DNA from: a bacterium
GTDB lineage: Bacteria > JAJVIF01
Direction: 5' to 3'
Assembly (NCBI GenBank): GCA_022072165.1
Contig: JAJVIF010000001.1
Span: 1,019,353-1,083,352, forward strand
Length of the DNA stretch: 64,000 nt
Both the position numbers and the translations under genes were made by a program. The notes below the pieces were generated by a model that saw nothing but the letters and a program-made list of their open reading frames with translations, was not told the DNA's origin and searched no databases. This document shows positions 1 to 34,823 of this stretch, one piece after another. Position 1 is the first letter of the stretch. Every line of letters starts with the position of its first letter.

Positions 1-548
1 ACCAGGTCATGGTTTAGCACCCGGTCGGTGAAGTACGTATGACCGGTCGCGGTCGGGACGTCCACCAGGAAGAGCGCCATACCGCTGATCCCCAGGTCCG
101 CCCGGTTCGTGGAGCCATTCGGGGTGCCCGTGATGTTGTTCGGCGCGGGGAAGGGATGCTTCACCACATACTCCACGTCGATCGTGGTCCCGGTCGCGCT
201 GACCCCGGTCACCTGGAAGGACTTGGCGTTGAGGAAGCTATCAATGGAGAGCAGATACAGGTCGTCATTCGCCTGCCCCGCCCGGGTCGCTTTCAGGGCG
301 CTGGTGGCCGTCAGGGTCGACGGGTCCACCGTCACGGTGTAGAGCGCCAGGGCGGCGGTCTGCACCAGCCCCGCCTGACTCGGCGTCCCCAACGCGGCCG
401 GCGTGTTCAGCACACTGGTCGGCAGGGCACCTGATGGAGTGGATGATGAGGATGCAGACGGGGGGCTGACCGGGGACGATGACCCACCGGCACACCCCAG
501 CAGGGCCGCTGCGGACAATGCCGCCGCGGACCAGAGCAGATGGCGCAT
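1..548 (-). CDS. Giant lipoprotein paralogue, 5' end only (runs off the left edge)
   Basis: This is the first 182 codons of a secreted lipoprotein gene that continues beyond position 1. It is read from the ATG at 548, which follows a GGAGG ribosome binding site. The N-terminus MRHLLWSAAALSAAALLGC is a lipoprotein signal peptide with lipobox LLGC at residue 19, so the protein should be lipid-anchored outside the cytoplasm. DNA and protein are identical to the first 182 codons of the gene at 2918-6406 and its upstream region. Whether the two genes stay identical further on cannot be seen. Function is unknown. Either this is a very recent gene duplication or conversion, or it is a duplicated contig end. 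Confidence 0.75.
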   Translation of the reverse strand, partial: MRHLLWSAAALSAAALLGCAGGSSSPVSPPSASSSSTPSGALPTSVLNTPAALGTPSQAGLVQTAALALYTVTVDPSTLTATSALKATRAGQANDDLYLLSIDSFLNAKSFQVTGVSATGTTIDVEYVVKHPFPAPNNITGTPNGSTNRADLGISGMALFLVDVPTATGHTYFTDRVLNHDL

Positions 549-710
549 GAGCGAGACCTCCAGAGTTGCGAGAAAAACATGCCGGCAGGTGGGCGCGCGG
601 ACGCTGAATGCACGTCGACGGCTGCGCTGGTCGCTGCCAGGATCTGAGTCCATTATAGGCGAGCAAGCAGCGATGATCAGAGACTGCTAACACTCATGGC
701 TCGCGAAAGC

Positions 711-741
711 AAAAGCCCCCCGGAGCCTGGCTCCGGGGGGC
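711..741 (-). terminator. Intrinsic terminator of the 770-2479 lipoprotein gene
   Basis: A perfect 13-bp GC stem (715-727 with 729-741) is followed on the minus strand by TTTT (714-711). It lies 28 bases after the stop codon. The same hairpin recurs at 6569-6599 because it is inside the duplicated block. Confidence 0.85.
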
Positions 742-769
742 GTGAATTAGCTGAGGCTCGACGGGATCC

Positions 770-2479
770 TTACGGATCGACGGTGATGGAGAACCGCTGC
801 ATGTTCCAGGCCGACTCCTCGAAGAGGGAGTTCGTCACCGTGTCGCCGTCATCGATCAGGTCGTCGTAGGCCACCATCACCACGGTGTACGAGCCGGCGG
901 GAAGTTCCCCGGCACCTGCTCCAGTCGGGATCTGGATGTGGACCTTCAGCGGTGAGGCGGGAGTGGCACCGTCCGGATCGGAGCCGATACCGTGGGCAAA
1001 GCCAGCCGGTGGGAGTCCGACACCAGTCGGCAGAATCTTATTGCCGGCGATGTCGTTGCCTGGGTCATAGCCGATGACCTGATTGCCAGTGGCGTCGTCA
1101 AACACGACCCAGCTGATGTGCTGCACGCCACCAGCAGTGGGGGCGTTGTAGAACTTCAGGCTCGGCGACTCGCCGCGCAGGATACCAGTGAGACCGCCGC
1201 CGGACGGGGTGGGCGTACCGAGCACGAAGACCGTGCTGAAGCCCGCCCGCTCGGTCACGACACTCAGATCAGGCGGCAGCACATTGCGGACTGCGGCTTC
1301 GGAGGCGGGGTTGTACCAGGCCGACCACGAGGGCGGCAGGGCCGCACCCGCCTGCATGTCGGTAATGTCGACATACAGATTCACCGGCGTGTTGGTGCCA
1401 GCGGCACCATTGGCGGAATTGGTGGTGTCTTTCACCATCGTCAGCGCTTCGGGTTTGTTGAAGCCAGGGCGGTAGTAAATGGGGTTGCCACGGCGTTCCC
1501 GAGTTCGTACCACTTTTTCAGAAGGAGGATCCGACGCGATCGGACCTGCCGAGTTACCGTAGTTCCCTGCCAGCGCGAAGATGAAGCTGACGGTGCTGGC
1601 ACCGGCAGCGGCATTGAGCTTGAACGTGGTTTCAGCGCTTTGACCCTGGGCCAGAACACGGTCACCGGTATCTCCAGACGGGATGAACTCGACGTAGGGC
1701 GAGGCGAAGACGCCACCGAAGCCATCCGGGCTGGTGTAGTCGAAGAGCGGGAGGCTCGCCTCCGCCACCGGTGCTCCGGCGGACGTGGTGAGCACGCCAT
1801 CAGCGCCATTGTTCATGCCTTCGGCGTTGATGACATAGCCAGCCAGACCGGGATAGGGTCCGCCGGTCCGGGGACCGAAGTAGCCCTTGATGGTCCCGGT
1901 ATCCGCATCGGTGCCGGTCGCGATGCCAGCGGGGACGAGAGGAATCCCGGTGTCCACGATGTCGCTGGCCGGATTCGGACCGCCATTGACGATGTAGCCC
2001 CGGACGTTGTGGACCGAGAGGTCATTCCGGCTGCGACCAGTCCCGGTCACTGGCGGAGTCGCCACATTGAAGGGGTGCTTGATCGCGAAAGTCGCGGTCA
2101 CCAGGGGAATCGACAGGGTGCCGCCCTCGTTGTCCAGACCGATGCTCTTCAGCGAGATGCAGTCACCGGCGGTGCAGAAGACCGCGCTGCTGAAGTAGTA
2201 GGTCAGGTCAATCCCGTCAACAACATCACCACGGTCCTGAGCGGAGCGGTGAATGAGCGGGGTCGTACGAAAGGAGAGATCTTCCATGTTGATCTCGACC
2301 TGCATCGCTCCGAGCAGGGCAGCTCCCGCCTGAATGGTGCCCATCTGAGCTTCAGGAAGGACCGTCGACTGCGTGGACGGGGGAGGGGCGGACACGGAAG
2401 TGTTCGAGCCCCCGGAGCAGGCGGTGAGGGCCAGCGCAACGAGCAGGGTCGCGGGCAGGGCCACCTGTATTCGGGTCAT
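770..2479 (-). CDS. Giant-family secreted lipoprotein A (N-terminal family domain only)
   Basis: 569 residues. The signal peptide ends in lipobox LTAC (Cys21), so the product is predicted to be lipid-anchored. The N-terminal family domain shared with the other large lipoproteins here is recognisable: a cysteine pair at about residues 102 and 107, IKHPF at about 133-137, and RNDLSVHNVRG at about 151, then a YYRPGFNKPEA element and a DMQAGAA element that corresponds to DWQ in the paralogues. It ends without the propeller or Ig-like C-terminal modules of its relatives. Function is unknown; a cell-surface structural or binding role is an inference. A long open frame on the opposite strand is a GC-rich shadow. 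The start is the ATG at 2479, with AGGAG upstream. Confidence 0.85.
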   Translation of the reverse strand: MTRIQVALPATLLVALALTACSGGSNTSVSAPPPSTQSTVLPEAQMGTIQAGAALLGAMQVEINMEDLSFRTTPLIHRSAQDRGDVVDGIDLTYYFSSAVFCTAGDCISLKSIGLDNEGGTLSIPLVTATFAIKHPFNVATPPVTGTGRSRNDLSVHNVRGYIVNGGPNPASDIVDTGIPLVPAGIATGTDADTGTIKGYFGPRTGGPYPGLAGYVINAEGMNNGADGVLTTSAGAPVAEASLPLFDYTSPDGFGGVFASPYVEFIPSGDTGDRVLAQGQSAETTFKLNAAAGASTVSFIFALAGNYGNSAGPIASDPPSEKVVRTRERRGNPIYYRPGFNKPEALTMVKDTTNSANGAAGTNTPVNLYVDITDMQAGAALPPSWSAWYNPASEAAVRNVLPPDLSVVTERAGFSTVFVLGTPTPSGGGLTGILRGESPSLKFYNAPTAGGVQHISWVVFDDATGNQVIGYDPGNDIAGNKILPTGVGLPPAGFAHGIGSDPDGATPASPLKVHIQIPTGAGAGELPAGSYTVVMVAYDDLIDDGDTVTNSLFEESAWNMQRFSITVDP

Positions 2480-2859
2480 ACCACTTCTCCTTTGAGCGCG
2501 GCGAACGCGAGTGGACTAAAGGATGTCAGGAAGGTACCGTCCAGTACTAACCGCTGGGTCCGATCGTACGCCGCGTTGATCCGGGGGTCGAACCAGCGGG
2601 CTGCGCCTGCGTGTGGTCTGCACACGTTCCCGATACCCGGCAGATCCGGGGAAAGTCGGGTCACAATCAGCGGGAGACGGTCTGGCTGGCCCCTTTCCGT
2701 AGCAGGAGGCCAATCCATGTGATTCTACCACGCAGACTGGCACTGCCAGCCCACAGGTACAGATCACTTCCCTCTTTGGATACGTTTCCACCATTGTTCG
2801 ATTTGATCCCCAATCGATCTGTTATGTCGCCTCAATGAGCCACGGATCAACCGCAACCC
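2480..2859. other. Intergenic region upstream of lipoprotein A
   Basis: This gap lies between two minus-strand lipoprotein genes and should hold the promoter of the 770-2479 gene. I see no convincing reading frame, RNA gene or strong promoter match. It ends at the terminator of the next gene. Confidence 0.4.
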
Positions 2860-2889
2860 AAAGCCCCCCGGAGCCGGGCTCCAGGGGGC
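2860..2889 (-). terminator. Intrinsic terminator of lipoprotein B
   Basis: A GC-rich hairpin (2863-2889, one internal mismatch or wobble) is followed on the minus strand by TTT. It starts 29 bases after the TAA stop of the 2918-6406 gene. It is a diverged relative of the hairpins at 711-741 and 6569-6599. Confidence 0.8.
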
Positions 2890-2917
2890 AGAAAGTTAAG
2901 TTTCGGACAAAGCCGAC

Positions 2918-5900
2918 TTAGAAGATGGTGCCCGACGATCCCAGGAATTTCGTCGCGAACGCGTCCGAGCTGCCAACAGACGTGAAGTTCGTCGTGCCCG
3001 GACCGGCGTCGAAGTCCATGGTGGTGCTGTAAGAGCCCACGATGATCGGGTCCTCGCCGGCAGTCAGGCCGATAGAGCGCCCGCTGTCAGTGCCGGTGCT
3101 ACCTAGTAGCGACAGCCAGATTGTGGCGCCAGTGGACGGGTTCATCTTGATGACATAGAGGTCGCTCCCCCCCACGGGGGTCTGTGCACCACCACCAAAA
3201 TCTGCGCCGGTGAACCAGTCGCCTGTAGCTACCACACCAGAAGCAGTAACTGCGACACCGCGTCCCTGCTCAGAAGAGGTACTGCCCGTGAACGTGCGGT
3301 CCCAGACATACGCTCCGGTCGTAGAGTTCAGGGCGACTACGAACGGATCAGACACCGTGGTGCTGCCACCGGCGGTCCGGACGCCACCACCGAAGTCAGT
3401 CGTGTTGAAGAAGCGACCGGTGGCATAGACCCGGCTGCCATCGGCAGCCACCGCGTTCACATACTCCAGGTTCGCAGCACCTGTGCCATCGAAGACATAG
3501 TCCCAGACATGTGCGCCAGTCGTGCCGTTCAGCATGACCACGAAACCGTCGCCGGATGTGTCGGCATTGCGAACACCGCCGCCGAAATCCATGAGGTTGC
3601 GATAGTAGCCACCCACTGCGACATTGCCCGAGGGGGTGAAGGCGGCTGCCATCGCGCTCTCATTCCCCGTGGCCGGTCCATTAAAGGACTGTCCCCACAG
3701 GGCTACACCAGCCGAGCTAATGCGGACCACGTACGGATCCTGGCTAGTTGAGGTTGGGCCGCCAGCTGATGTGAGAGTCACGGAACCCCAATCTTCGGTG
3801 CGATTGAACTTGCCTGTAATAACGACATCCCCCGTGGCCTGATCGACCGCCAGGCCGTTAAACTCCTGGAAATCGGTGATTCCGGAGCTGGTCCCCGGAC
3901 CGCTGCTCCTGGCATTCCAGATGGGGGTGCCTGTGGCGCTGTACTTGCAGACGAAGGTGTCGTAGTTCGAACTCAGGACAGAGGTGTTGTTTGTCTCCGG
4001 TCCGAAGCCGAAGTCCATAGTCTGGCGCCAGTAGCCGTAGACGATCACATTGCCAGCGCTGTCAGCTCCGATCCCCTGTGTATCTACCCAGGTACCAGAT
4101 AGGGACCCCAGATTGCGATCCCACAGGTAGGTGCCGCTGGAGTCCAGAGCCACTATGCTGTTTCGTGGAGTCGCAGCGGAGTTAAGTGGTCCCCCACCCC
4201 AGTTGGTGTTAGCGGCAAACGCACCAATGAGGTAAATGTTGCCAGCAGAAGAGACCGCCACACCACGCGCAGATTCCGCGCTGGTGGTTTGCGTGTTTGG
4301 CGACCAGACCCAGCCGGAAGGCCCGCCGCCGGTGATGGTGCCATTGACCGTCGGATACGCGGTCCCGCTGGTGGTGGGATGCAGGGCGTCGTTGGCATAG
4401 ACCGTAAAGGTCACGGTGGCATGCGGGGGATTAGCGATGGGGGTGGTGTTAGCGGCGTTGGGGAACGCGCTGAACGTCAGGGTGTCGCTGTTGCGATTGT
4501 TGACGATGGTGTAGGAGATGGTGTCCCCTTCGGGGTCCGTTGCGGTCCCGGTCCCGGCGTTCATGGTGAAGGTCGCCGGGGTCGGCAGCGAGGCTGAGGC
4601 CAGCGCCCGGGTGCCCGTCACTTGCGGGGGGCGGTTCGGTCCGAGGGTGTAGCTCAGGGGATAGTCCACCTGGTCGGTGCCATCATCCAGGCGGACGATG
4701 ACATCAATGGGATCCGGCGTCAGGTCGAGATTGTTCATGTTCGGCGACGAGGGGGTCTGCGCCGGATAGGGGCTGTTGAGGCCGCTCACGACGGTCACAA
4801 AGCCGAGCCCATCGCCCCAGTCGACACTGATGTCCAGCGGATCACTGTCCGCATCGGCGATCCCCGTGATGCTGACCCCCGCCTGGGTCCCGGAGAGCAA
4901 GGTCGCCCCACTGGTCAGCGCGACCGTCGCGCTCGGTGGCGCATTGAATGCGAAGAGCGGGACCGTGAAGGCCTGATAGGTCACCGACGCCGGCGTCACC
5001 GCCAGCGGCGCGAGATTTTCGTCCAGGCCAATCAGCAGCCCACTGGCGGCATCCGCAGCCCGGACCACCCCCACATAGTTGTTCGGGACCTGGCCGGACC
5101 CCGCCGGCTTGGTCACCAGCCCGGTCATGAAAATCGCATCGCCCGGTCGTCCGGAGTCCTCGCCCGGATCGCCGCCCGATGATGTGTCGTCATCGATGAC
5201 CGTCCCGATGGGAGCGGTCACAGTGGCATCGCCCAGGATCCCCGGGATGCAGATATCAAGAGTCGGGACGCCACTCTCGCCCTGCGCCACGTTGGTGAAG
5301 CTGGGATCAGTGGCCAGGTCCGCTTCGGTGGTCTCGGTCGCCCGGGCATCCCAGTCCTCGACATAGAAGCTGAAGTCCACCGCCGAAATGGTGTCGGCAT
5401 AGAAGAGCCCATCCTGGCTTTCCAGCCGAACCCGGTGCACATCGAGGGCACCGTGCGGCATCCGGTAGGCAAACAGACTCGCATCCGGACTCGCCGGTGG
5501 GAGGCGGTTCGCTTTCTTCTGCGCCGGGGTCGCTCCGCCGCGGGGATCGTTGTAGACCGCGATCATGGCAACGTCGAGGCTGAAGCCCCCCCCGATCGCG
5601 CCTTTGTTGAAGCTGACGGTGTTCGCCGCCGCCTGTCCCTGATGCAGGACCCCATACCCGGTCCAGCCATCGTTCGCCGGACCAAACTCACTCCGGGTCC
5701 AGCCGTCGCTTCCGAAGTTCCCGGTGACGTCCCCGCCGTTGGAGACGCCAAGGCGGGCATCCGCCAGTTCATCGACCAGCTGCCGATATGGGAAGGTGTT
5801 CGCCGTCCCGCTGGTGGTCAGCAGCCCACCTGGGCTGAAATAGGCATCCGCGTTCGCCACCAGGTCATGGTTTAGCACCCGGTCGGTGAAGTACGTATGA

Positions 5901-6406
5901 CCGGTCGCGGTCGGGACGTCCACCAGGAAGAGCGCCATACCGCTGATCCCCAGGTCCGCCCGGTTCGTGGAGCCATTCGGGGTGCCCGTGATGTTGTTCG
6001 GCGCGGGGAAGGGATGCTTCACCACATACTCCACGTCGATCGTGGTCCCGGTCGCGCTGACCCCGGTCACCTGGAAGGACTTGGCGTTGAGGAAGCTATC
6101 AATGGAGAGCAGATACAGGTCGTCATTCGCCTGCCCCGCCCGGGTCGCTTTCAGGGCGCTGGTGGCCGTCAGGGTCGACGGGTCCACCGTCACGGTGTAG
6201 AGCGCCAGGGCGGCGGTCTGCACCAGCCCCGCCTGACTCGGCGTCCCCAACGCGGCCGGCGTGTTCAGCACACTGGTCGGCAGGGCACCTGATGGAGTGG
6301 ATGATGAGGATGCAGACGGGGGGCTGACCGGGGACGATGACCCACCGGCACACCCCAGCAGGGCCGCTGCGGACAATGCCGCCGCGGACCAGAGCAGATG
6401 GCGCAT
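2918..6406 (-). CDS. Giant-family secreted lipoprotein B with C-terminal beta-propeller repeats
   Basis: 1162 residues from the ATG at 6406, chosen because GGAGGTCTCGCTC precedes it and a lipoprotein signal follows (lipobox LLGC, Cys19). An in-frame ATG further upstream is unlikely. The shared N-terminal domain spans roughly residues 60-480, with VKHPF, STNRADLG, NADAYFSPGG and a VEDWD element. A middle region with WGDG and DPEGD motifs resembles PKD- or cadherin-type Ig-like folds. From about residue 750, repeats built on DFGGG plus alternating VVALNSTTGAYVWDR-like strands match the SBBP type of seven-bladed beta-propeller. The neighbour at 6624-10271 is a close paralogue. The first 182 codons are exactly duplicated at 1-548. 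The precise role is unknown; a surface-exposed binding or adhesion protein is an inference. Confidence 0.88.
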   Translation of the reverse strand: MRHLLWSAAALSAAALLGCAGGSSSPVSPPSASSSSTPSGALPTSVLNTPAALGTPSQAGLVQTAALALYTVTVDPSTLTATSALKATRAGQANDDLYLLSIDSFLNAKSFQVTGVSATGTTIDVEYVVKHPFPAPNNITGTPNGSTNRADLGISGMALFLVDVPTATGHTYFTDRVLNHDLVANADAYFSPGGLLTTSGTANTFPYRQLVDELADARLGVSNGGDVTGNFGSDGWTRSEFGPANDGWTGYGVLHQGQAAANTVSFNKGAIGGGFSLDVAMIAVYNDPRGGATPAQKKANRLPPASPDASLFAYRMPHGALDVHRVRLESQDGLFYADTISAVDFSFYVEDWDARATETTEADLATDPSFTNVAQGESGVPTLDICIPGILGDATVTAPIGTVIDDDTSSGGDPGEDSGRPGDAIFMTGLVTKPAGSGQVPNNYVGVVRAADAASGLLIGLDENLAPLAVTPASVTYQAFTVPLFAFNAPPSATVALTSGATLLSGTQAGVSITGIADADSDPLDISVDWGDGLGFVTVVSGLNSPYPAQTPSSPNMNNLDLTPDPIDVIVRLDDGTDQVDYPLSYTLGPNRPPQVTGTRALASASLPTPATFTMNAGTGTATDPEGDTISYTIVNNRNSDTLTFSAFPNAANTTPIANPPHATVTFTVYANDALHPTTSGTAYPTVNGTITGGGPSGWVWSPNTQTTSAESARGVAVSSAGNIYLIGAFAANTNWGGGPLNSAATPRNSIVALDSSGTYLWDRNLGSLSGTWVDTQGIGADSAGNVIVYGYWRQTMDFGFGPETNNTSVLSSNYDTFVCKYSATGTPIWNARSSGPGTSSGITDFQEFNGLAVDQATGDVVITGKFNRTEDWGSVTLTSAGGPTSTSQDPYVVRISSAGVALWGQSFNGPATGNESAMAAAFTPSGNVAVGGYYRNLMDFGGGVRNADTSGDGFVVMLNGTTGAHVWDYVFDGTGAANLEYVNAVAADGSRVYATGRFFNTTDFGGGVRTAGGSTTVSDPFVVALNSTTGAYVWDRTFTGSTSSEQGRGVAVTASGVVATGDWFTGADFGGGAQTPVGGSDLYVIKMNPSTGATIWLSLLGSTGTDSGRSIGLTAGEDPIIVGSYSTTMDFDAGPGTTNFTSVGSSDAFATKFLGSSGTIF

Positions 6407-6599
6407 GAGCGAGACCTCCAGAGTTGCGAGAAAAACATGCCGGCAGGTGGGCGCGCGGACGCTGAATGCACGTCGACGGCTGCGCTGGTCGCTGCCAGGA
6501 TCTGAGTCCATTATAGGCGAGCAAGCAGCGATGATCAGAGACTGCTAACACTCATGGCTCGCGAAAGCAAAAGCCCCCCGGAGCCTGGCTCCGGGGGGC
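5859..6599. repeat. Exact 741-bp duplicate, copy 2 (copy 1 at 1-741)
   Basis: Identical to 1-741. It covers the first 182 codons of lipoprotein B, about 165 bases of upstream DNA and the terminator that ends the 6624-10271 gene. Identity includes non-coding bases and all third codon positions, so the copies are very recent, recently converted, or an assembly product. Confidence 0.95.
6569..6599 (-). terminator. Intrinsic terminator of lipoprotein C
   Basis: A perfect 13-bp stem (6573-6585 with 6587-6599) is followed on the minus strand by TTTT. It is placed 24 bases after the stop codon of the 6624-10271 gene. Confidence 0.87.
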
Positions 6600-6623: not shown

Positions 6624-9600
6624 CTAGAACGAGGCGGTGTTCTCGATCACCTTCATGCCGAAGTAGTCTACTGAGCCGCTCAGGGAGTTGTGGGAGTTGA
6701 CGGCAACCCCTGGATCCGCATCGAAGCCGTTGCCAGCGAACTCACCACAGAGGTAGAGGTCGCCATAGCTGTCAAGCGTCAGACTGCGCATCCGGTCGTT
6801 GCCAGCGCCGTTCCAGGTCAGGATGTAGGGATCTCCTCCAACCAGTGCATTCGCGCCGGTCGAGGCCACCCGCTTGATCAGGTACGCCGAGGCGCCGTTG
6901 CCGAAGGTTGGGCCATTCCCCAGGTCCTGATTCGGGTTGTAGTCCCCGACAGCGTAGACCGAACCGCCAGAGACCGCCACCGAGTACCCGGAGTTAATGG
7001 CAGTGACTGCCCCGCGTGTCATGCCGTTCACCCAGAGATTGCTCCCATCAGCAATCGAGAAGGCTGCCAGATAGGGATCGTAGTTAGAAGTCGAAGTGGT
7101 AGAAGCCGCCACATCGGTGGTTCCGTTGAAGTTCGTGTTGTTCGCATACCGGCCAGTCGCATAGACCCGGCTGCTATCTGCAGCCAGTCCGTTGACATGG
7201 CCGACTGTTGCAATGCTTGCGGAAAACACGCGATCCCAGATCCATGCGCCAGTGGAAGCATTGCGCAGCGTGATGAAAGAGTTTGCATGGGAAGTGCTGC
7301 TCACACGCAAAAAGTGTCCTGCCCCACCAAAGCTGGAGAGCGGGGTACCGGAAGCCAGACTCCGGAAGTAGCCACCGACCACCAGCTGGCCGAAGGGAGT
7401 CATGGCCAGAGACTGCCCGGATTCCGTACCGGTCGCGACGGTGCTGGTGCTGGTGCTCATGGCGAAATTGGTCGCCCAGTCCGTGGTCATTGAGGACGTA
7501 TTGATACGAGCCACGAAGGGGTCGTAGCTCGCTGAGGCTGCCCCATGGGCGGTGGTCAGCGTGATCGGGGCACCGCTGGTTGGGAAGTCCTCGGTCCGAT
7601 TAGCGCGACCGGTGATGTACGCGTTGTTGCTGTCATCCAGGACTAGGGCATTGAAGCCGAAGGCCTCAGTCACGTTGGCATCGCCCGGTGAGTTGGTCCG
7701 GAAGTGCGAAATGTAGGAGCCATCGGGAGCGAACTTGACCAGGAAAAGGTCGGTGCTGGCGTTGAGCACGTTGTTGTTACTTTCTTCGGTGATTCCGGTC
7801 GCGAGCGTCATGAGCCCACGCCAGGAGCCATAAAGCAGGATGTTGTCGTTGCTGTCGACCGCCATACCACCCAGGTTTTCGATTCCAGTAGCAAGGGAGG
7901 TGGACGATCCCAGGAGGTTGACCCACTGGAACTGGCCCAGCGGATTCAGCTTGACAAGGAACAACGATGGCTGAGGGCCGACCTGCGGCTGATTCCCCGA
8001 ACCAAAATTGTTGGTGCTGCCGTTATACAAGCCGGCGATCAGCACGTTGTTCTGGCTGTCCCGCTGGATCACATACGCCTGCTCGGTGCTGGTCGACTGC
8101 CCCACACCTTTGTAAAACCAGCCCGGCACCCGGGTGGTGGTCCCGACGATCCCGGGCCAGCGGGCGGCACTGTTGGGCTGACCAATCGCCGTGTTCGTAT
8201 GGAGCGGATCCTCGACATAGACCGTGAAGGTCGTGTTCCCCAGGGTGCTGATGCCGGTCGTGTTCCCGGCCAGCGGGAAGGCCGTACCCGAGATGTTGTC
8301 GCCGTTGGCGGTATTGCGAATCCGCAGGGTCATCGTGTCACCCTCGGGATCCGTAAACCCGGCGGTACCGGCATTCATGGTGAAGAGGGCGGCCGGAATC
8401 ACCGGCAGGCTGGCGCTCGCCAGGACCGGACTCCCGGTAAGCACGGGTGCCCGGTTCGGACCGAGCTGGAAGTTAACGGGATAGTCCACTTCGTGCTGGG
8501 CATCCGCGACCCGGACCAGGGCGTTGATCGCCTGATTGGTGAGCGTCGCGTTGTTCCGCTGCACGCCAATGGGATTCAGCGGGGCGTAGGGGCTGGTGTA
8601 GCCCGTGGCCAGCGGCTGCAGGCCGCCGCCATCGCCCCAGTCAATGGAGATGTCCAGCGGATCGCTGTCGGGGTCGCCGATACCCGTGATCAGGATCTCT
8701 GGCTGTGTCCCCGACAAGAGCGGATTGCTGCTGACCAGGACCACGGTCGCGCTCGGCGGCAGATTGTTGGGCGCCAGCTCGACTTCGAAGGGGAAGAACG
8801 TGACTGGTTCCGGGACGTTGGAAGTGACCAGCGACAGGCTGCCATCAAGCTCGATCACAAAGAACGGATCGGCGATCGCGGCCTCGACATCGGTCACCCG
8901 GACCAGGCCCTGATAGGTGCCCGGAGTCTGGCCACTTCCGGCGGCCTTCGTCACGGACTCGCTGAAGAAGAGCGGATCGCCAGGGAGACCGCTGTCCTGA
9001 TCTGCATCGCCGCCGAAAGCGGAGTCGTCATCCACCGGCCCGCCGGCCATCGTCACGACTGCCGTGGCATCGCCCAGGACTCCAGGGATGCTGACAGCCA
9101 GGGACGGGGCACCACTCTCGCCGGGGGCGATATTGGTGAAGGATGGATCCAGGCTCAGATCGGATTCGGTGGTTTCAGTTGCCCGGGCATCCCAGTCTTC
9201 TACATGGAAGCGGAGCACAGAAGCCGACAGGGTGTCCTGGATGAAGCCACCGCCCTCACCGGCGAACGAGACCTTCTGGATATCCAGGGCTCCGTGGGGC
9301 ATCCGGTAGGCGAAGAGGCTGGCATCCGCCGATGCCGGCGGGAGGCGATTCGCCTTCTTCTCGGCAGGGGTCAGGCCACCGCGGGGGTCGTTGTACCGGG
9401 CGATGACCGCCATGTCCAGGCTGAAGCTGCCACCGATGGCTCCGCGACTCAGCGACAGGACATTGCGGCTGACCTGGCCCTGATGGAGGACCCCGTAGCC
9501 GGTCCAGCCATCGTTGCCAGCGCCGTACTCATCCCGCGTCCAGCCATCTGTCCCGAAGTTGCCGGTGACATCTCCATCATTGGAGATGCCAAGACGGCTG

Positions 9601-10271
9601 CCGGTCCCGTCGAGGGTCTCATCCACGAGGAGCTTGTACGGGAAGGTGTTGGCGGTGCCGCTGGTCGTCAGCAGGCCCCCAGGAGCGTAGTACGCATCTG
9701 CATTGGCGATCAATGTGGTGTTCGCCACACGATCCGAGAAATACGTGTTGCCACTGGCAGAAGCGACATCTGCCAGCCAGAGGACCTTACCGGCGATCCC
9801 CAGATCAGAGCGGTTTGTGACCGCGCTGGGGGTCCCCAGGACGTCGCTGGGAGCCGGGAAGGGATGCGCGATTTCGTACGTGATATCAACAGTCGTGGCA
9901 GTCCCGGTGATGCCGGTGATGCGGAACGACCGGGCAGTGAAGAAGCTGTCGATGGGCAGGAGGTAGAGGTCGTCGGTGGCCTGCCCGCTGCGGGTTGCTT
10001 TGAGCGAAGCGGTGGCACTCAATGTGCCCGGATCGATGTCGATGGTATAGAGCGCCAGGGCGGAGTCCGCCAGGCTGCCCCGCACATACGCCTGTCCCAG
10101 GCTGGCGGGAACACTGGTGATGGGGGCGACTCCCGCTTCAGGCACCAGCCCGGTGCCGATCGGGGAATCCTGTGGGGTAAGGGGCGCCGGGGGCGTGACG
10201 CCATTGGAGCCCCCGCAACCGAGGGCGGCCAAGGCCAGACTGGTGGCGAGCCACCAGGTCAGCTGTCGCAT
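6624..10271 (-). CDS. Giant-family secreted lipoprotein C with C-terminal beta-propeller repeats
   Basis: 1215 residues. The signal peptide has lipobox AALGC (Cys19). It is the closest relative of lipoprotein B along its whole length: IAHPFPAPSD, NRSDLGIAGK, NADAYYAPGG, GWTGYGVLHQGQ, EKKANRLPPAS and VEDWDARATET occur in both in the same order. WGDGGG and DPEGD mark the Ig-like middle part. The C-terminal third has SBBP-like propeller repeats (for example the NAYITGRANRTED and RVYATGRYAN segments). It is probably lipid-anchored on the outer membrane or cell surface. Function is unknown. The 875-codon frame on the opposite strand is a compositional shadow. An AGGAGG ribosome binding site precedes the ATG at 10271. 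Confidence 0.88.
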   Translation of the reverse strand: MRQLTWWLATSLALAALGCGGSNGVTPPAPLTPQDSPIGTGLVPEAGVAPITSVPASLGQAYVRGSLADSALALYTIDIDPGTLSATASLKATRSGQATDDLYLLPIDSFFTARSFRITGITGTATTVDITYEIAHPFPAPSDVLGTPSAVTNRSDLGIAGKVLWLADVASASGNTYFSDRVANTTLIANADAYYAPGGLLTTSGTANTFPYKLLVDETLDGTGSRLGISNDGDVTGNFGTDGWTRDEYGAGNDGWTGYGVLHQGQVSRNVLSLSRGAIGGSFSLDMAVIARYNDPRGGLTPAEKKANRLPPASADASLFAYRMPHGALDIQKVSFAGEGGGFIQDTLSASVLRFHVEDWDARATETTESDLSLDPSFTNIAPGESGAPSLAVSIPGVLGDATAVVTMAGGPVDDDSAFGGDADQDSGLPGDPLFFSESVTKAAGSGQTPGTYQGLVRVTDVEAAIADPFFVIELDGSLSLVTSNVPEPVTFFPFEVELAPNNLPPSATVVLVSSNPLLSGTQPEILITGIGDPDSDPLDISIDWGDGGGLQPLATGYTSPYAPLNPIGVQRNNATLTNQAINALVRVADAQHEVDYPVNFQLGPNRAPVLTGSPVLASASLPVIPAALFTMNAGTAGFTDPEGDTMTLRIRNTANGDNISGTAFPLAGNTTGISTLGNTTFTVYVEDPLHTNTAIGQPNSAARWPGIVGTTTRVPGWFYKGVGQSTSTEQAYVIQRDSQNNVLIAGLYNGSTNNFGSGNQPQVGPQPSLFLVKLNPLGQFQWVNLLGSSTSLATGIENLGGMAVDSNDNILLYGSWRGLMTLATGITEESNNNVLNASTDLFLVKFAPDGSYISHFRTNSPGDANVTEAFGFNALVLDDSNNAYITGRANRTEDFPTSGAPITLTTAHGAASASYDPFVARINTSSMTTDWATNFAMSTSTSTVATGTESGQSLAMTPFGQLVVGGYFRSLASGTPLSSFGGAGHFLRVSSTSHANSFITLRNASTGAWIWDRVFSASIATVGHVNGLAADSSRVYATGRYANNTNFNGTTDVAASTTSTSNYDPYLAAFSIADGSNLWVNGMTRGAVTAINSGYSVAVSGGSVYAVGDYNPNQDLGNGPTFGNGASAYLIKRVASTGANALVGGDPYILTWNGAGNDRMRSLTLDSYGDLYLCGEFAGNGFDADPGVAVNSHNSLSGSVDYFGMKVIENTASF

Positions 10272-19035: not shown

Positions 19036-19082
19036 GGGACCGGACACGGCTCCTGCGTGACTCGATTCCCCCGGGCGGTCGG

Positions 19083-19088
19083 AGTATA
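19083..19088 (-). promoter_or_regulatory. Putative -10 box TGCTATACT for the DUF2723 gene
   Basis: TATACT with an upstream TG (extended -10 style) reads on the minus strand about 48 bases before the chosen ATG. It overlaps the longer candidate GTG start, which it therefore disfavours. Confidence 0.5.
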
Positions 19089-19292
19089 GCACTCGCCGTT
19101 ACGTCACCTTAACCGCCCTGTACGAGGTCCACTGGCGCGCAACAGCGAATTTCCGTGACAGGATGACGCATCAGGATTGACAGATTAAGTGCCCGTTGCG
19201 TAGCTTTGAGACCAGCGTCCGCGTTCCCCGTACGGTACCCTTACAGCACTGCTTTCACCATCCGACAGCTGCCCGGAGGAGGTTGGCCTCTT

Positions 19293-22200
19293 ATGAGTCC
19301 TTCCGGTCAGCGGGAGTGGGTCGCCTTCGGGGTGGCCGGACTGCTGGCTCTGGCCGGCTGTGCCGCCCCGTCATCGTCACCCCTGGCTCCCGCCTCGCAC
19401 AGCGCGAACTCACCTGACACGCTCCTGATTCAGCCGCAGATTTCGGCGATCACAGAGGCCGGCATCTTTGCCGATGCCCCTTTCGCCGCCGTCGACATCT
19501 CCCTCGACCTCGCGACTGGACAGGCCGAAATCCTGCCGGTCCGTCTGGCGCAGGCACCGCCCCCAGTGGGGCAGAAGTTCGTCGTGGACCTCACCGGTGT
19601 GATGACCGGTGATCTGGGCTGCCCGGACTGCCTGAAGATCACGGGCCTCCGCTTTGATCCGCAGGGGCGGGTGGCGGTCGACCTGAGCCTGCGACACCCC
19701 ATCGCTGCGCCGAATCTGTCGCAGGGGATCGGGACCGCTTCGCTCCATGTGAACAACGTCCGGGGCTTTGTGGTGAGTCGGGTCGCGGGTCCTGACGGCA
19801 TCATCGGGACGGCGGACGACCCCGACCTGTACACGCCCTCAGGCCTGAACATGTCCTCGCCCATCGGCTTCGATGAGGACCTCCAGAGCGTCATTGCCGG
19901 ACTCCTCGCCAATGCAGACGGCTACTCCCGGGACATCACGCCCCTCATCGCTCCCGGCTTCGACACGCTGTACCCCTATATCGTGTTCGGGGCCGATGAT
20001 GGCTCCATCGGGACCGGCAGCTTTGGCCCAGATGGCTGGATCGGGGCGGAGCTGCAGAACCCCTCCGGGTACAACGTCTTTGGCCAGGGCTCGACGATCA
20101 ATGGATCGCTGCTGCTCGACCTCAACAACCCGAGTCTCGGCACTAGTCAGGTGACGTTCCGGTTTGTGCTGACGGCCTCATATGTGGTGGCTCGGAAGTA
20201 CTTCGGCGGGGTCCAGGGGAGCAAGCTCGACCCCCTCTACTTCATGCCCGAAGGGGCACTGATGAGCCCCTGGCGGGTCACGACGCACTATCTTGGCACT
20301 GACGGTCTGGGCGGACTCCCCCGGGAAGGGACTACTGACCTCGCGCAGGTGGAGGTCCGGATTCGCGACTGGCAGAAAGCCATCGGTACGAGCAACACGG
20401 TCCCGGCCCTGACTGAGACCACGTCCCCTACCGGACTCCTCGGTCCCAGTCGCCCCAAAACGCTCGCGGTGGACATTCCGGGCATCACCAGCGCTCCAGT
20501 GACTTACAGCGTGCTGGACGCCCCGCATGATGGAACGGAAGCCAACCCGATCCTTCAGGTCGTCAGCATCGCGAACAATCCTGCCGCCGCGGCGGGCTCC
20601 CATGTCGGCTTCATCGCGGTCTACGACGAACGCTCAAACGGTCCGATTTTCGGCACGGGTGAGAGCTTCGAGTTGTATGAGACCGGCGGAGCCAATCGGG
20701 ATCTGGCGCCATTCAATCTCACCTCGGGGCTGCGCTCCTACGTGACCTACCAGCTCTTCAACTGGGAAGTCGGTGACATCGGTGCCCACGCGGTCCTCGA
20801 TAACGCCATCGCCCGGGTGAACGGCCGGATCGTCCTGGATGCCCGGGGCTCCTTCGTGGATGCACCAGCGACCAGCATCACCGAGTTTGCGTATGTCCTG
20901 GGCTATGGCGGCGACCCGACCGAGTTCACCACCCCGGATATCGTCACAACCGCTGCGCTACATACGGCAGCCCACAGTCTGCCTGCCGGACCGGTGGAAG
21001 TGGGCTTGCGGGTGACCTCGAATCTCGGCGATCAGGACATCACGACCTACAGCCTGGATGTCGCTCCGGCGCGGGATCCCTTTGGGACTCCGGATGCCCT
21101 GATCCAGATGCACCCAACCCCGTACACCAACCTTCGCTTTGGTGTCCAGGGGCAGGACTTCACTGATCTGTCCAACAGCAATCCTGTCGGTGGCGACAAT
21201 CTCATCGCTCTGGGAGATCGGCTCTACGTGGTCTTCTATGGCAACACGGGGCTGCCGAATCCCGGACTACATATCTTGCGGAGCCTCGATGGCGGCACTA
21301 CCTGGCAGGCTCCCACTGAATTGATTAGCGCCGCGAATCCCTCCTTCACGCAGTACGGCGGTGCCAGCATCACCGGGGCGCAGGTCGCAGGTCAGGATCG
21401 TGTGGTGGTCGCCCTCGGGACCATCAGCTATCTGACCTCCGGGACCGGGCGCATCCTGGTCTTTGAGAATACGAACGCGGCCACCGGTACCAGCTGGACC
21501 CAGACGCAGCCGGAGAGTTATGCGCTCTCCGCTTCGCAGTCAGGAGCGGTCTCTCCGGCCATCGCCATGAATCCACTGAATCCGTCGGAGATTCATCTGG
21601 TCTACGGCACCGACACTGGCGGGGCAACTAACGGCATCCTGCGCCGATGGCGGGTCCGCTCCTCCACCAGCGGAGTCGCCGGACTGAGCAGCGGCTTCCA
21701 GACCATCGATGGCACCGCCGGAGACAGCGGCTGGCTTACCGATACCGGCAGCAGCTGGTGTACAGAACTCGCGGTCCATCCTCTTACAGGCCGGACGTTC
21801 ATGCTGCTGGGACTCAATCGCTGGAGCTATGTGCTTCGGACCGATGACGCGGGTGCGTCGTGGATGCGTCCGCTGGTGGCTCACGATCACGGGGCTACGT
21901 TCTATCGGGAGGGAGACCTCGTGATGGATCCCTGGCGGGCGGATGAGTACGTTGTCGTCCGGGCGCGTCGAGGGGCTCAGTTCGCGGACCCGTTCATTCG
22001 GGTGCTGCGGGGTGCAGGCGTGACCCTCACGGCGGTGGACCCACAGGGTGCGCGTTCAGCGGCTGACATGGGATTCGGCGCGTTTGACACCCTGAGTGCC
22101 CACGCGGCACTGGCGCTCCATGGCACGGGCGAGCTGGAAATCTACTGGACCGAGGCCCTCGGCCCAGGTGGTGGCCCAGGGACCTATACCAATGGCCCGC

Positions 22201-22376
22201 ACCTGCAGATGGACATGAGCTTGCCGACAGTGACGAACTTCCTGTACGACCCTGACCGCACCATCAACGGCACCTCGACTGGCATGAACCCGTCAGTGGA
22301 AGTCGCTTCCGATGGTCGGGTGCATACGGTCTGGCAGGACTCGGTCGCCGGACGGCTCTACTACCGTCGGGGCTAG
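19293..22376 (+). CDS. Giant-family secreted lipoprotein D with Asp-box propeller-like C-terminus
   Basis: 1027 residues from the ATG at 19293, which follows GGAGGAGG. Lipobox LALAGC places the anchor at Cys23. The N-terminal family domain includes the CPDC pair, LRHPIAAPN, LHVNNVRGFVV, NADGYSRDI, YNVFGQGS, YFMPEGALM and IRDWQKAIG. The C-terminal half has two Asp-box motifs, SLDGGTTW and TDDAGASW, which are typical of sialidase/BNR-type beta-propellers. Catalytic sialidase residues were not identified, so a binding role is as likely as hydrolysis. It is the only plus-strand member of the family here, convergent with lipoprotein E and sharing a hairpin terminator with it. Confidence 0.86.
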   Translation: MSPSGQREWVAFGVAGLLALAGCAAPSSSPLAPASHSANSPDTLLIQPQISAITEAGIFADAPFAAVDISLDLATGQAEILPVRLAQAPPPVGQKFVVDLTGVMTGDLGCPDCLKITGLRFDPQGRVAVDLSLRHPIAAPNLSQGIGTASLHVNNVRGFVVSRVAGPDGIIGTADDPDLYTPSGLNMSSPIGFDEDLQSVIAGLLANADGYSRDITPLIAPGFDTLYPYIVFGADDGSIGTGSFGPDGWIGAELQNPSGYNVFGQGSTINGSLLLDLNNPSLGTSQVTFRFVLTASYVVARKYFGGVQGSKLDPLYFMPEGALMSPWRVTTHYLGTDGLGGLPREGTTDLAQVEVRIRDWQKAIGTSNTVPALTETTSPTGLLGPSRPKTLAVDIPGITSAPVTYSVLDAPHDGTEANPILQVVSIANNPAAAAGSHVGFIAVYDERSNGPIFGTGESFELYETGGANRDLAPFNLTSGLRSYVTYQLFNWEVGDIGAHAVLDNAIARVNGRIVLDARGSFVDAPATSITEFAYVLGYGGDPTEFTTPDIVTTAALHTAAHSLPAGPVEVGLRVTSNLGDQDITTYSLDVAPARDPFGTPDALIQMHPTPYTNLRFGVQGQDFTDLSNSNPVGGDNLIALGDRLYVVFYGNTGLPNPGLHILRSLDGGTTWQAPTELISAANPSFTQYGGASITGAQVAGQDRVVVALGTISYLTSGTGRILVFENTNAATGTSWTQTQPESYALSASQSGAVSPAIAMNPLNPSEIHLVYGTDTGGATNGILRRWRVRSSTSGVAGLSSGFQTIDGTAGDSGWLTDTGSSWCTELAVHPLTGRTFMLLGLNRWSYVLRTDDAGASWMRPLVAHDHGATFYREGDLVMDPWRADEYVVVRARRGAQFADPFIRVLRGAGVTLTAVDPQGARSAADMGFGAFDTLSAHAALALHGTGELEIYWTEALGPGGGPGTYTNGPHLQMDMSLPTVTNFLYDPDRTINGTSTGMNPSVEVASDGRVHTVWQDSVAGRLYYRRG

Positions 22377-22457: not shown

Positions 22458-25166
22458 TTACGGCTGGACGAACATCCCCCGGAGGAGCCGGATGTAGCTC
22501 CAGCCGACCTGGCGGAACTCTGCGACCCCCGAGACCGCGTTCTGGCCATTCCCTGACAGGTCCAGGTTGAGGTAGACCGGTCCGGTGTTGGCGGCCAGAC
22601 CCCGACTCCGCAGTCCGTAGTACGACGGATCGGAGTGGTCTTTGTGGAACGCCAGGGTGACGATGGTTCCGGGATCGGTGTCACCATCCTTCTCCAGGAC
22701 CGCGCAGGCGAGGGCACCATTAGGTCCTGCCACCAGCACCGGTGCGGTGTGGACCCGTCCGGAACCGTTCGCGAAGAGGTTCAGCACCGGACCGAAAGTC
22801 TCACCAGTCCTCGCGACCCGTCCAAAGACCCCGGCGCCATTCCGCCAGGCCACCGCGATGGAACCATCCGGACCAATGGCCGTCGTGGGCTCAATCTCGC
22901 CCAGGGCCGGGTCACTGGCGATGGTCTCTTTCGCGCTCCAGGCGGTGCCGTTGTATCGGCGCATGAAAACATCCTGTTGCAGATTGTCGGGGGCGTTACC
23001 GCCGGCCCAGGTCACGAGAAATCCGGAGGGCGTGGTGGTCAGATGGGGCCAGAGAGTCCCCGGTGTCGCGCCGGAGACACCGAAGCCGCTACCGACAATC
23101 CCTTCGGTGCCGAAGGCGCCACTCTCGCGGATCGCCACATAGACCCGGGCGGGGAGGTCGTTGGTCGCCAGGTATGCCTCATAGGTCAGGGCAAATTTGT
23201 TGCCCGAACCAACGAGGTCAAAGTTCCCCAGGGTTTCGCCCCCAAAACCATCAGCCGCGGCAGCGATGAACGGCTCACTCCAGACGGTGCCGTTGCGCTG
23301 GGTGTACCAGATTTCGTCGGTCAGGGCCCAGATCACACCAACGGTGTTATTGCTCATGACACCCACTGCGCTCCGGGGGGTGATGGAGTCCATGGAGAGT
23401 TCGTGATGCACTTCTGTGATCGCACCCGGGACGCCGCTGACTGGGATCGCGATGTGATAGACATAGACATCGGTCCCCAGGAAAATGCCTTCTTCTTCCT
23501 TGATCCATACGACGTGGGTGGTGCCGTTCGGAGCTACCACCACAGAGCTATCCGAGGCCCCGCCGATGGTCACCAGTTCCGCATCACCGCTGAGATTCGT
23601 GCCACTGGTCCAGTCCAGCGAGGGGGACGGAATGATGGGGTCCGGATTGACGATGACTGGCAACGTCACGATTTCGGACAACTCACCCTGGGCATTGCCC
23701 ACTCGCAGCGCCACCGTGTAGCTGCCTTCGGCGGTGAACCGGTGAGTCGGAGCCGCCTCGAACGGGTCAGTCCCGAGGTAGTCAACATCAAACTGAGCGC
23801 CATCGTAGTCCCAGTCGAACTCGAAGCGGTTCAGCGGGACGAGGTCGGGATCGTAGCTGTTGGAGCCATAGAAGATGAATTCCGCATCCCGGAGGTAAGC
23901 GGTCGCGGGAGTTGGGGCAGAGGTCAGGACCGCTACCGGGATTTCTCCTGTGACCACGCTCTCCTGCAGCCGGACCCTGGTCACGTGGAAACCACGGAGG
24001 TCCTGACGACTCTCGGTCACGAGTTCCGGGTCGTAGAGCTCATCCTCCACAACCAGCAGTGCGGGGTAGAGACCAGCAGGCTGTGGATCAATAGCTGCAA
24101 CGAAGGTCGCCAGCATGGGATCATCGGTTGCACCGGAGCCGACCGCAGTCGTGGGCTCCTGCAAATGGATGCCGAGTCCGGGGATCTCCAGCGACACCGC
24201 ACCAACATTGGACGACGCTTTCAGGCCGTAGCTGTTGGTGGGGAAGGGATAGAACTCCTCCACCAAAAAGCCCTGTTGCCAGTCGAGGATTGTGGCGCTC
24301 AGGGTCAGGTCGCCCCCATCTGCAGCGGCAGGTGCCTGATTCACGGTGAAGCCGGCGAAGAAGGCTTCCTTTTGATTGAACTCGGGGTTGTAGTAGGTCG
24401 GGTTCAGGCGACCGCCGACTTCCTCCACATCAAGCGCCTGGGGCCCTTTCGCGCTCTGGCCATAGCTGGCTTCGAGGATGAAATCGAACCGCACCGAGCC
24501 GTTGGCCGGCTCCAGGATGTAGCGGCGGATATCCCATTCTGAAGCCATCGGCATTTTCGCCCACAGGATGAAATCGCCTTCCGCGGTGGGGGAGGGATTG
24601 TCCTCGGTAAAGAAGCGTCGGAATGGATTCAGAGTCGCCGACCCGTCCGGCAGATTCTCACTGAAGTGGGTGGTGTACCCATCCGCATTGAGCAGGACAC
24701 CCGGGTCGGTGGTGAGGGGCTGCTCCAGGATGCCGGGAGTCCCCGGGAACGTGACAGCGCCCGAGACGCCCAGGATGCCCCGGACATCAAAGGCATCGAG
24801 ATCGATCCGGTTCTCGGTGCTGCGATAAGGATGCCGGATAGCGATGTCTACCGCCACTTTGCCCTGGGGGGTCTTGCTGAACGACGCCACCCGGACACAG
24901 TCCGTACAGGGTGCGCTGCGGAAGTACCCGGTGGCGTCATAGGTCCCGGCATCCCCCAGCGCCTGGGAGGAGCTGACGGGAGTCAGCGTGGCTCCCAGGT
25001 CCGTCACTTCCAGCACATAGTGCCCAAGGGGAGGACTCGTCAGTTGCTGACGGGGCGTGTGATCAGTATCGCGAGCGGGAATGAGGGCGGATGTCCCACC
25101 GTTGCAGCCAATCGCTGACAACACGATAAGACCCCCTGTCAGGGGCGCCAGGTGACGCAGACGCAT
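22458..25166 (-). CDS. Giant-family secreted lipoprotein E with PKD-like domain
   Basis: 902 residues. Lipobox SAIGC puts the anchor at Cys21. The N-terminal family domain carries CTDC, IRHPYRSTENRIDL, FDVRGILG, NADGYTTHF, NPFRRFFTED, YYNPEFNQKEA and ILDWQQGF, the clearest version of the domain in this window. Around residues 425-535 a PKD-type segment has a DWDYDGAQ element and EGSYTVALRV. The last 350 residues contain repeated strands with GTTHVVWIKEE- and GSIAVAWRNG-like elements that suggest a propeller. Function is unknown; a cell-surface location is predicted. It is convergent with lipoprotein D. Confidence 0.86.
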   Translation of the reverse strand: MRLRHLAPLTGGLIVLSAIGCNGGTSALIPARDTDHTPRQQLTSPPLGHYVLEVTDLGATLTPVSSSQALGDAGTYDATGYFRSAPCTDCVRVASFSKTPQGKVAVDIAIRHPYRSTENRIDLDAFDVRGILGVSGAVTFPGTPGILEQPLTTDPGVLLNADGYTTHFSENLPDGSATLNPFRRFFTEDNPSPTAEGDFILWAKMPMASEWDIRRYILEPANGSVRFDFILEASYGQSAKGPQALDVEEVGGRLNPTYYNPEFNQKEAFFAGFTVNQAPAAADGGDLTLSATILDWQQGFLVEEFYPFPTNSYGLKASSNVGAVSLEIPGLGIHLQEPTTAVGSGATDDPMLATFVAAIDPQPAGLYPALLVVEDELYDPELVTESRQDLRGFHVTRVRLQESVVTGEIPVAVLTSAPTPATAYLRDAEFIFYGSNSYDPDLVPLNRFEFDWDYDGAQFDVDYLGTDPFEAAPTHRFTAEGSYTVALRVGNAQGELSEIVTLPVIVNPDPIIPSPSLDWTSGTNLSGDAELVTIGGASDSSVVVAPNGTTHVVWIKEEEGIFLGTDVYVYHIAIPVSGVPGAITEVHHELSMDSITPRSAVGVMSNNTVGVIWALTDEIWYTQRNGTVWSEPFIAAAADGFGGETLGNFDLVGSGNKFALTYEAYLATNDLPARVYVAIRESGAFGTEGIVGSGFGVSGATPGTLWPHLTTTPSGFLVTWAGGNAPDNLQQDVFMRRYNGTAWSAKETIASDPALGEIEPTTAIGPDGSIAVAWRNGAGVFGRVARTGETFGPVLNLFANGSGRVHTAPVLVAGPNGALACAVLEKDGDTDPGTIVTLAFHKDHSDPSYYGLRSRGLAANTGPVYLNLDLSGNGQNAVSGVAEFRQVGWSYIRLLRGMFVQP

Positions 25167-32367: not shown

Positions 32368-32405
32368 CACCCAAGGGAGAAGCGAATCCACCGGCTCCAC
32401 TTCCG

Positions 32406-34823
32406 CTAGCGGAAGAAGGATGTCATGGACGGGGTGCCATGATTGACAGCCACCACGTTGTTAGGGCGTGACACGGCGATCCCGTTCGGGGAAGTCCCGG
32501 TTGAGGCCGGTGCGTAGGTGTACAGCGGCCCGACGATGGTGCTGGGAGGGAGGTACTCATAGACCTCGATGAGCGGATTCGTCAGCGGAGCGAAGACGCT
32601 CCATCCCAAATGGATGTAGCCATCCCGGTCCACGGCGATGACGGTGTTTTGCGACTGCCCGGCCGGAATGGGGAGGATGCTGCCGGTCGCCAGAGTCTGT
32701 TGGGCATTGGGATCAGTGATGGCGATGGCCCGGCCACTGCCGCGTCCGCCCGGATTGCTGTGCACCAGCAGGTTGCCCCAGTTGTCGGAGTCATAGACGG
32801 AGTTGACAAATGGCGCACTGGCCCAGGTGGAGAGAATGGCACCTGTGGTTTTGTCGTACTGCCAGGTGGTTTGGGGGGTGAACGGTCGATGCCAGAGTTC
32901 GCCGTTGTCCAGTATCACGATGCCAGAATAGTGCCAGGTGAGGGCTGTCGAGCCCGGCGCATAGCCGGTGATGCGTGTGCCATTGGGGTCGAACACCACG
33001 ATATTGGTGGTCTCGCCCGGCTGGCCGCTGCCGGTGTACACTCGGTTGGTGGCTTCATCGATGGTGATCCCCCGGACGAACGAGACGTAGTCGGTGATCG
33101 TCCACTGACGTTGGAACACCGCGTCATCGTTGTAGACCAGGACCCGGTTCGGGCTGGAGCGAAGGATGTAAAACTCACCAGTCCCCTGATGGGCATCGAT
33201 TTCGTAGCCGAAGCCCGCGACATTCGCGAACTCGACCGGCTTCACGATGACCACGGTGACAGGATTGGTATCGAGGCTGGTCACGCTCCCCTGCGTCGCA
33301 TGGACCTGGGTGGTGCCCATCCCGACCCCAGTCAGGACTGGTCCGCTGAAGGTCCCGACATCGGTGGCACTGGAATGCCAGGTGACAGTCCCGCTGATGT
33401 CTTCAATCAGAGGTGGCGTATCGAACGTGCCGGTGGCGGTAAAGGTCACAGCTTCGCCGGCCCCCTGGGCGATGATCTGCCGGGTGGTCGGGGCAATCGT
33501 GATGCTGAGCAGCTGGCGGGTGATGCCTTCGACTTCCAGCGGCAGGATCTGCCATGTGCTGAACTGGGAGATCGTCACCGGATCGATGGTGGTTCCTTTG
33601 ATGGAGGAGAGCCCATCGGTGGCCCCACCGGTGTTGGTGCCAGGCTGCCGGGTGTCAGTGACCCGCACGGCGGCGTAGTAAGTCCCCTCGCCTGCCCCCG
33701 CCTGATTGGTGATCAGCGTGTTGTACTGCAGCGGATTGTCCGGAAAGCCGGTTCCACCGATGGGGGTCAGGGTCTGGCTGCTGGTGAGAATCCCGGGGAC
33801 GAAGAGATCGACTTGCCCGACTTCGCTGGCACCTCGTACCGCCCCCAGGCTCCCCAGGGCCGGATCGACCACCGCACCCGCCTGCCAGTCATAGACCTGC
33901 ACCTGGATTTCGGCGGTCGAACTGGTGTTGCCGGCTTCCAGAAGATTCGTGGCCTCCGGGATCTGCATGTCGACCCGCCAGGGAGCTTTCGCGCTGAATT
34001 CCGGGAGGTAGTACTTCGGGTCCATCCGGAAGAACCGGTTCGCTGCGCTTTGTCCATACGCCGCAGTGAAAAAGATACTGAGCCGGACTTCAGGATCGCC
34101 GCTTGCGAGATTGAGCGTAACAGGTGTGAGTCGATCAGCGCCCATCGGAAAGATGTTGAACCCGGTAGGCTGGGTGAGGTCGGCGAATCCGTTTGGACTT
34201 GAACTCGCCCAGTTGCCGGTGGTGCGATCTTCACCGATGGTCACATACGGAAAAATCGTCGCCGTCAGGTCCGGACGAACCTGCTGCGCCACACTGGTCA
34301 GCAGCCCCGAATACCCGGCAGGTTCCACCACCAGACCTGCTGGCAGATTCGCCGGACCGCCCCCCGCCGGAATGCTGACGTTCCCCTTGTCGCCCAGGAT
34401 CATCAGTTGGGCATCGAAAACATGCAGATCGAGTCTGTTCGCGCCACTGATCGGCAACTGCGGATTCCCCGGCTGGAACGGATGCCGGACCCGGAATTTC
34501 ACCACGACCTGGCCATCGCCATTGAACGAGAGTCCATCCACCCCGAGGCACTCACCGCAGGGGCTTCCTTTGAGGAACCCGGTGGCATTGAGCCAGTAGC
34601 TATCCCCCAGCGCGGTCGTCTCGCGGCCAGGCACGATTTCCGCCGTCAGAGTCGTGGGATTGATCACGACATCCCACTGGCCGAACAGGGCCACATCCGG
34701 CGGCGGCAGGGGGAACGTATGCTGCTGCCCCTCGGGGGCAGGCAGAGTGCCGACACTTCCCTGAGAGCAGGATGTCGCAACCAGCAAAAGGGGTGTCAGG
34801 AAAAGGGCAGAGATCGGCCGCAT
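32406..34823 (-). CDS. Giant-family secreted lipoprotein F with Ig-like and propeller-like regions
   Basis: 805 residues. Lipobox ATSC anchors it at Cys19, and AGGAGG lies six bases before the ATG. The N-terminal family domain shows CGEC, VRHPFQPGNP, ANRLDLHVFDAQ, YYLPEFSAKAPW and VYDWQAGAV. Residues about 450-540 (LLSITIAPTTRQIIAQGAG, GTVTWHSSATDV) look like a Big_2-type bacterial Ig domain. The C-terminal 260 residues have NHL/propeller-like repeats such as RVLVYNDDAVF and GYIHLGWSV. Surface binding is an inference. It is the last member of the family in this window and is divergent from the second PatA-like gene. Confidence 0.86.
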   Translation of the reverse strand: MRPISALFLTPLLLVATSCSQGSVGTLPAPEGQQHTFPLPPPDVALFGQWDVVINPTTLTAEIVPGRETTALGDSYWLNATGFLKGSPCGECLGVDGLSFNGDGQVVVKFRVRHPFQPGNPQLPISGANRLDLHVFDAQLMILGDKGNVSIPAGGGPANLPAGLVVEPAGYSGLLTSVAQQVRPDLTATIFPYVTIGEDRTTGNWASSSPNGFADLTQPTGFNIFPMGADRLTPVTLNLASGDPEVRLSIFFTAAYGQSAANRFFRMDPKYYLPEFSAKAPWRVDMQIPEATNLLEAGNTSSTAEIQVQVYDWQAGAVVDPALGSLGAVRGASEVGQVDLFVPGILTSSQTLTPIGGTGFPDNPLQYNTLITNQAGAGEGTYYAAVRVTDTRQPGTNTGGATDGLSSIKGTTIDPVTISQFSTWQILPLEVEGITRQLLSITIAPTTRQIIAQGAGEAVTFTATGTFDTPPLIEDISGTVTWHSSATDVGTFSGPVLTGVGMGTTQVHATQGSVTSLDTNPVTVVIVKPVEFANVAGFGYEIDAHQGTGEFYILRSSPNRVLVYNDDAVFQRQWTITDYVSFVRGITIDEATNRVYTGSGQPGETTNIVVFDPNGTRITGYAPGSTALTWHYSGIVILDNGELWHRPFTPQTTWQYDKTTGAILSTWASAPFVNSVYDSDNWGNLLVHSNPGGRGSGRAIAITDPNAQQTLATGSILPIPAGQSQNTVIAVDRDGYIHLGWSVFAPLTNPLIEVYEYLPPSTIVGPLYTYAPASTGTSPNGIAVSRPNNVVAVNHGTPSMTSFFR

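Follow-up and report, generated by a model that had tools for sequence, protein, structure and literature searches.

The 64,000-nucleotide stretch analysed here (the window, C1:1019353-1083352 of a 3.26 Mb genome in four contigs, 99% complete) carries genes for very large putative lipoproteins that begin alike and end differently. This raises the questions whether these genes form one family, how far that family extends, and what its constant and variable parts might do.

The window genes belong to a family that occupies a tenth of the genome

Seven genes of the window had originally been proposed to share an exported start and an N-terminal domain. All of them matched the family profile (E 1e-45 to 1e-117, iterated profile; Table 1), which confirms that they are members of one family. 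The translational starts assigned at 548, 2479, 6406, 10271, 19293, 25166 and 34823 agree with the signal peptides in the translations, and the landmarks HPF/HPY, R-x-DL, DVRG, NADGY, YxxPEF and DWQ correspond to genuine conserved alignment columns within a shared N-terminal part of ~350-430 residues (aligned window translations). Protein A is, as had been claimed, little more than this constant domain.

Table 1. Family genes in the window (window coordinates) and damaged family copies elsewhere in the genome (contig coordinates).
Feature	Position	Strand	Details
Partial family gene	1..653	(-)	5' part; whole gene C1:1016325-1020038; N-domain from ~356 leftwards
Gene A, 569 aa lipoprotein, nearly headless constant domain	770..2479	(-)	core ~1283-2317, second part ~830-970
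Gene B, PKD/Ig-like segment then propeller-like head	2918..6511	(-)	likely start 6406; constant domain ~4958-6214
Gene C, SBBP-like propeller head	6624..10271	(-)	constant domain ~8778-10061
Gene D, BNR/Asp-box-like head	19206..22376	(+)	likely start 19293; constant domain ~19479-20771
Gene E, head of PKD and more	22458..25166	(-)	constant domain ~23928-25028; structure modelled
Gene F, Ig-like and propeller-like head	32406..34823	(-)	constant domain ~33531-34688
Broken or frame-split copy	C2:381231-384215
Broken or frame-split copy	C2:420371-421361
Broken or frame-split copy	C1:1278884-1280107

A profile built from 23 N-domains gave 140 matches in the same genome, and searching those regions with the iterated profile yielded 133 family ORFs or fragments, ~127 of them with a near-complete domain. 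The earlier estimate of at least seven members was thus far too low, the family being ~18 times larger. Its genes have a median product length of 960 aa, add up to 372 kb (11.4% of the genome) and form 88 groups spread over all four contigs; 60 groups consist of a single gene and the others are tandem arrays of 2-5. Some copies are fragments or disrupted. Two family genes at C1:1622303-1625245 and C1:1627718-1630525 (L100) are identical in domain and head, representing either a very recent whole-gene duplication or an assembly duplicate.

The family is confined to one lineage

Among 385 genomes searched, the family was present in all four genomes of the class and in none of the 381 others, in agreement with the predicted lineage specificity. 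The other three class genomes contained 92 (G002), 128 (G001) and 113 (G003) matches. At ~90-130 copies in every available class genome, the family would qualify as diagnostic for the lineage. Two peptide patterns taken from the tighter alignment A3 (the diverse alignment A2 yielded no searchable pattern) were scanned against 84,980 species genomes, a set that may lack the closest neighbours of the window's own record, and detected 71 stretches. Of these, 6 were relatives, all in MAG AUK107, JAGGVT01, which is G002, as the same loci recur there. On the N-domain tree, in which support for deep nodes is weak, there are 12 changes of genome label compared to ~69 after shuffling; therefore, the family of each genome was amplified largely independently from about a dozen shared lineages.

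Members are lipoproteins with a P/A/S/T/G-rich tether

A lipobox with the consensus L-[L/A]-[G/A/S]-C was found in 122 of the 127 members by rule and in four more by eye, which bears out the predicted exported lipobox start and, together with the signal peptide, identifies the proteins as bacterial lipoproteins. The lipobox is followed by a tether of ~37 residues rich in P/A/S/T/G, and sampled members from the relatives share both lipobox and linker composition. A CxxC pair occurs in 44/127 members (pattern match, first 120 residues). A TonB-dependent receptor encoded at 38442-40514 (-) of the window shows that the envelope is diderm. Residue +2 after the lipobox Cys is mostly S/Q/A/G/N, and Asp is absent among the common residues at this position, which by analogy would direct the proteins to the outer membrane. 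Most likely, they are outer-membrane lipoproteins, which would sit on the cell surface and present interchangeable heads.

The heads comprise diverse propellers, Ig-like domains and a few enzymes

PKD_4 was matched in 43 of 120 C-terminal regions, and further regions matched SBBP, BNR, Kelch, FG-GAP, PQQ, He_PIG and Ig domains. For the window genes, all head matches stayed below the curated Pfam or NCBIfam cut-offs: the gene C head matched an SBBP-lipoprotein model with E 1e-10, that of gene D BNR with E 0.007, that of gene E PKD_4 with E 2e-5, and that of gene F both SBBP (E 0.018) and Big_2 (E 0.18). These assignments are weak by Pfam and NCBIfam alone, but they agree with the heads found elsewhere in the family. 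The heads of the relatives include PKD, LVIVD, PQQ and SBBP domains, so the constant domain recurs with many different C-terminal partners within one clade, as anticipated. A few heads match metzincin-type peptidases, MauG/cytochrome c, GH43 or metallo-beta-lactamase, with the full HExxHxxGxxH motif in two heads and CxxCH in three. The proposal of variable ligand-binding heads may hold for the binding-type propellers and PKD domains, but not for all heads, given the metzincins and the MauG-type peroxidase. Heads with metzincin motifs (in two adjacent genes), a di-haem MauG-type peroxidase and CxxCH haem motifs were observed at L094, L086, L092 and L104.

On balance, we favour the view that these ~130 proteins form a lineage-specific family of secreted, lipid-anchored modular proteins in which a constant module presents variable heads.

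The constant domain matches no described family and contains an invariant histidine

Pfam-A (hmmscan) assigned no family to the N-domain of the window member, and the sole Pfam match among 23 N-domains was an EF-hand (E 0.006) in one of them. NCBIfam searches gave nothing above the curated cut-off (best collag_bnd_Cnm, 17.6 bits vs a cut-off of 700), PDB sequences gave no match at E<=1, and literature searches found no description of such a family. The N-terminal domain is therefore without a named family, as originally stated, and in this bacterium roughly one-tenth of the genome is given over to a single unrecognised domain family that none of the searched domain libraries describes.

AlphaFold models of the constant domain, each built on only 10-13 sequences, were obtained for window protein E (pLDDT 69.5, pTM 0.75) and for an AUK107 member (pLDDT 70.1, pTM 0.77). 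Both are all-beta modules and agree with each other, and neither a known family nor unrelated folds among paralogues emerged. According to the models, the module probably consists of two seven-stranded Ig-like beta-sandwiches, and we read a long insertion in the first sandwich as bearing DVRG and NADGY. Foldseek returned only generic Ig-like sandwiches, with TM by query <=0.23 among the matches listed, and the viral structure library contained no significant match to the constant-domain model. Matches to sulfite oxidase, SoxZ and transglutaminase were rejected as such generic sandwiches (TM by query ~0.2).

His 112 (gene E numbering) is invariant in 127/127 members, and P113, R120, D122, L123, P181, R253, Y258, P261, D295, G345 and D375 are near-invariant. 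Since invariance of the histidine exceeds what a passive spacer needs, it argues for a specific site in the module, possibly one that binds a ligand or metal. The main alternative, conceivable though unlikely, is therefore that the N-terminal domain does the actual work, binding a ligand, metal or glycan or acting as an enzyme, and that the heads only tune the target. The invariant histidine with ~ten more near-invariant polar or Pro residues throughout the domain, Ca-loop-like DxDxDG stretches seen in family N-domains alongside the single EF-hand match, and the existence of the head-poor member A are consistent with this, but the structural matches include no enzyme fold beyond generic Ig-like sandwiches, and the enzyme signatures sit in the heads and none in the N-domain. 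Even less probable is that the constant domains form an S-layer-like coat or lattice with the heads as decoration of a structural envelope. High copy number and a universal constant module would suit such a lattice, and the Ig-like fold is typical of envelope lattices; however, the family comprises >100 different sequences, many just 25-30% identical, instead of one dominant protein, and neither Pfam nor NCBIfam gave an S-layer family match.

The constant part is retained while the heads diverge

Where the heads of the closest pairs are homologous, median identity is 93% for the N-domains and 40% for the heads. The heads were not homologous over 35% of their length in 3 of the 8 pairs with >70% N-domain identity and in 9/34 pairs at 50-70%. 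On the N-domain tree, the head clusters change 19 times (minimum 12) compared to ~37 times after shuffling; heads thus mostly track this tree, which implies that exchange is not free. The notion of exchanged C-terminal modules accordingly stands for the roughly one quarter to one third of close pairs in which a swap is clear, but not for the family as a whole.

A stretch of 2,269 bp in the window (4331..6599, (-)) recurs with 100% identity at C1:1017825-1020093 in the adjacent paralogue, and window positions 1-741, identical in DNA to 5859-6599, are part of it. The identity spans the upstream region, the constant part and the start of the head to ~codon 727, past which the propellers are ~25% identical in amino acids, producing a sharp breakpoint. 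Unless caused by an assembly error, this pattern reflects gene conversion or a swap of recent date. A different pair shows near-saturation at fourfold sites although its N-domain proteins are ~80% identical, which indicates purifying selection on the N-domain. A contingency or antigenic-variation repertoire, with one or few members expressed at once and copies shuffled, would accommodate the sharp breakpoint, the whole-gene duplicate and the fragments and disrupted copies, but is the least probable of the alternatives as the heads are functionally different domain types (proteases, haem proteins) and not variants of one antigen.

In the favoured view of a constant module presenting variable heads, each member is made as a Sec/SPII lipoprotein, placed in the outer membrane by analogy, with a flexible tether of ~37 residues leading to the constant module (~350-430 residues) and then to the head. 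The constant module would serve as a common presentation or docking part, and the heads (propellers, PKD/Ig, a few enzymes) might bind extracellular polymers or process them. Duplication and the formation of tandem arrays would enlarge the repertoire; purifying selection, occasionally aided by gene conversion, would preserve the constant module, and the heads would diverge quickly and sometimes be swapped. Architecture, lipobox, copy number, lineage restriction and the contrast between constant and variable parts are observed directly, whereas the surface location, the docking, anchor or assembly role and the polymer substrates are inferred. No recurrent neighbouring gene that could encode a dock or exporter was found beside the family genes, implying that any dock is encoded elsewhere. 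This absence, the invariant histidine and the heads tracking the tree count against the display of heads by a constant module. A more far-reaching version, which we hold tentatively and with less confidence, treats the constant domain as a new type of docking module for the surface, which defines the lineage, has its own conserved ligand or metal site and carries >100 heads per cell. The resulting lipid-anchored modular display system would be homogenised by gene conversion while the heads diversify, and unique to one uncultured phylum-level lineage.

Comparison with known modular surface proteins

The PE/PPE proteins of Mycobacterium, surface or secreted, likewise combine a conserved N-terminal domain with variable C-termini, take up ~10% of the genome and evolve by duplication and conversion. 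However, the sequences are unrelated, with no PE or PPE Pfam match in the family, and PE/PPE are helical type VII substrates while the present proteins are Sec/SPII lipoproteins of a diderm with a modelled Ig-like beta fold. Differing in sequence, fold and export route, the two are therefore analogous and the family is not a member of PE/PPE. SusD/SusE/SusF of Bacteroidetes are large paralogous surface-lipoprotein families binding extracellular polymers, as the present large paralogous lipoprotein family may do, but no SusD/E/F Pfam match occurred in the family, and in contrast to SusCD its genes are not paired with a TonB transporter or with any other recurring neighbour gene. Cellulosomal dockerin-type proteins also join one shared module to many heads, enzymes included; the present module differs in being ~400 aa long, N-terminal and lipid-anchored, and gave no dockerin or cohesin match. 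Lepto_SBBP_lipo / LipL53 (NF047494) is a lipoprotein with an SBBP propeller to which the gene C head scored 40.7 bits (cut-off 400), but only the propeller is common, as the match covers residues 802-894 of C in the head, outside the constant domain. The family would amount to a naturally occurring library in which one scaffold bears many heads, and would lend itself to testing how surface proteins can be diversified in bacteria around a part that stays constant.

Other genes of the window

The long ORFs at 30955-32367, 37252-38445, 41207-42949 and 52004-53002 had no Pfam match. Between family genes C and D, at 16738-19092 (-), lies a gene for a TMEM260-like protein O-mannosyltransferase with TPR, which, speculatively, might glycosylate the S/T/P-rich tethers.
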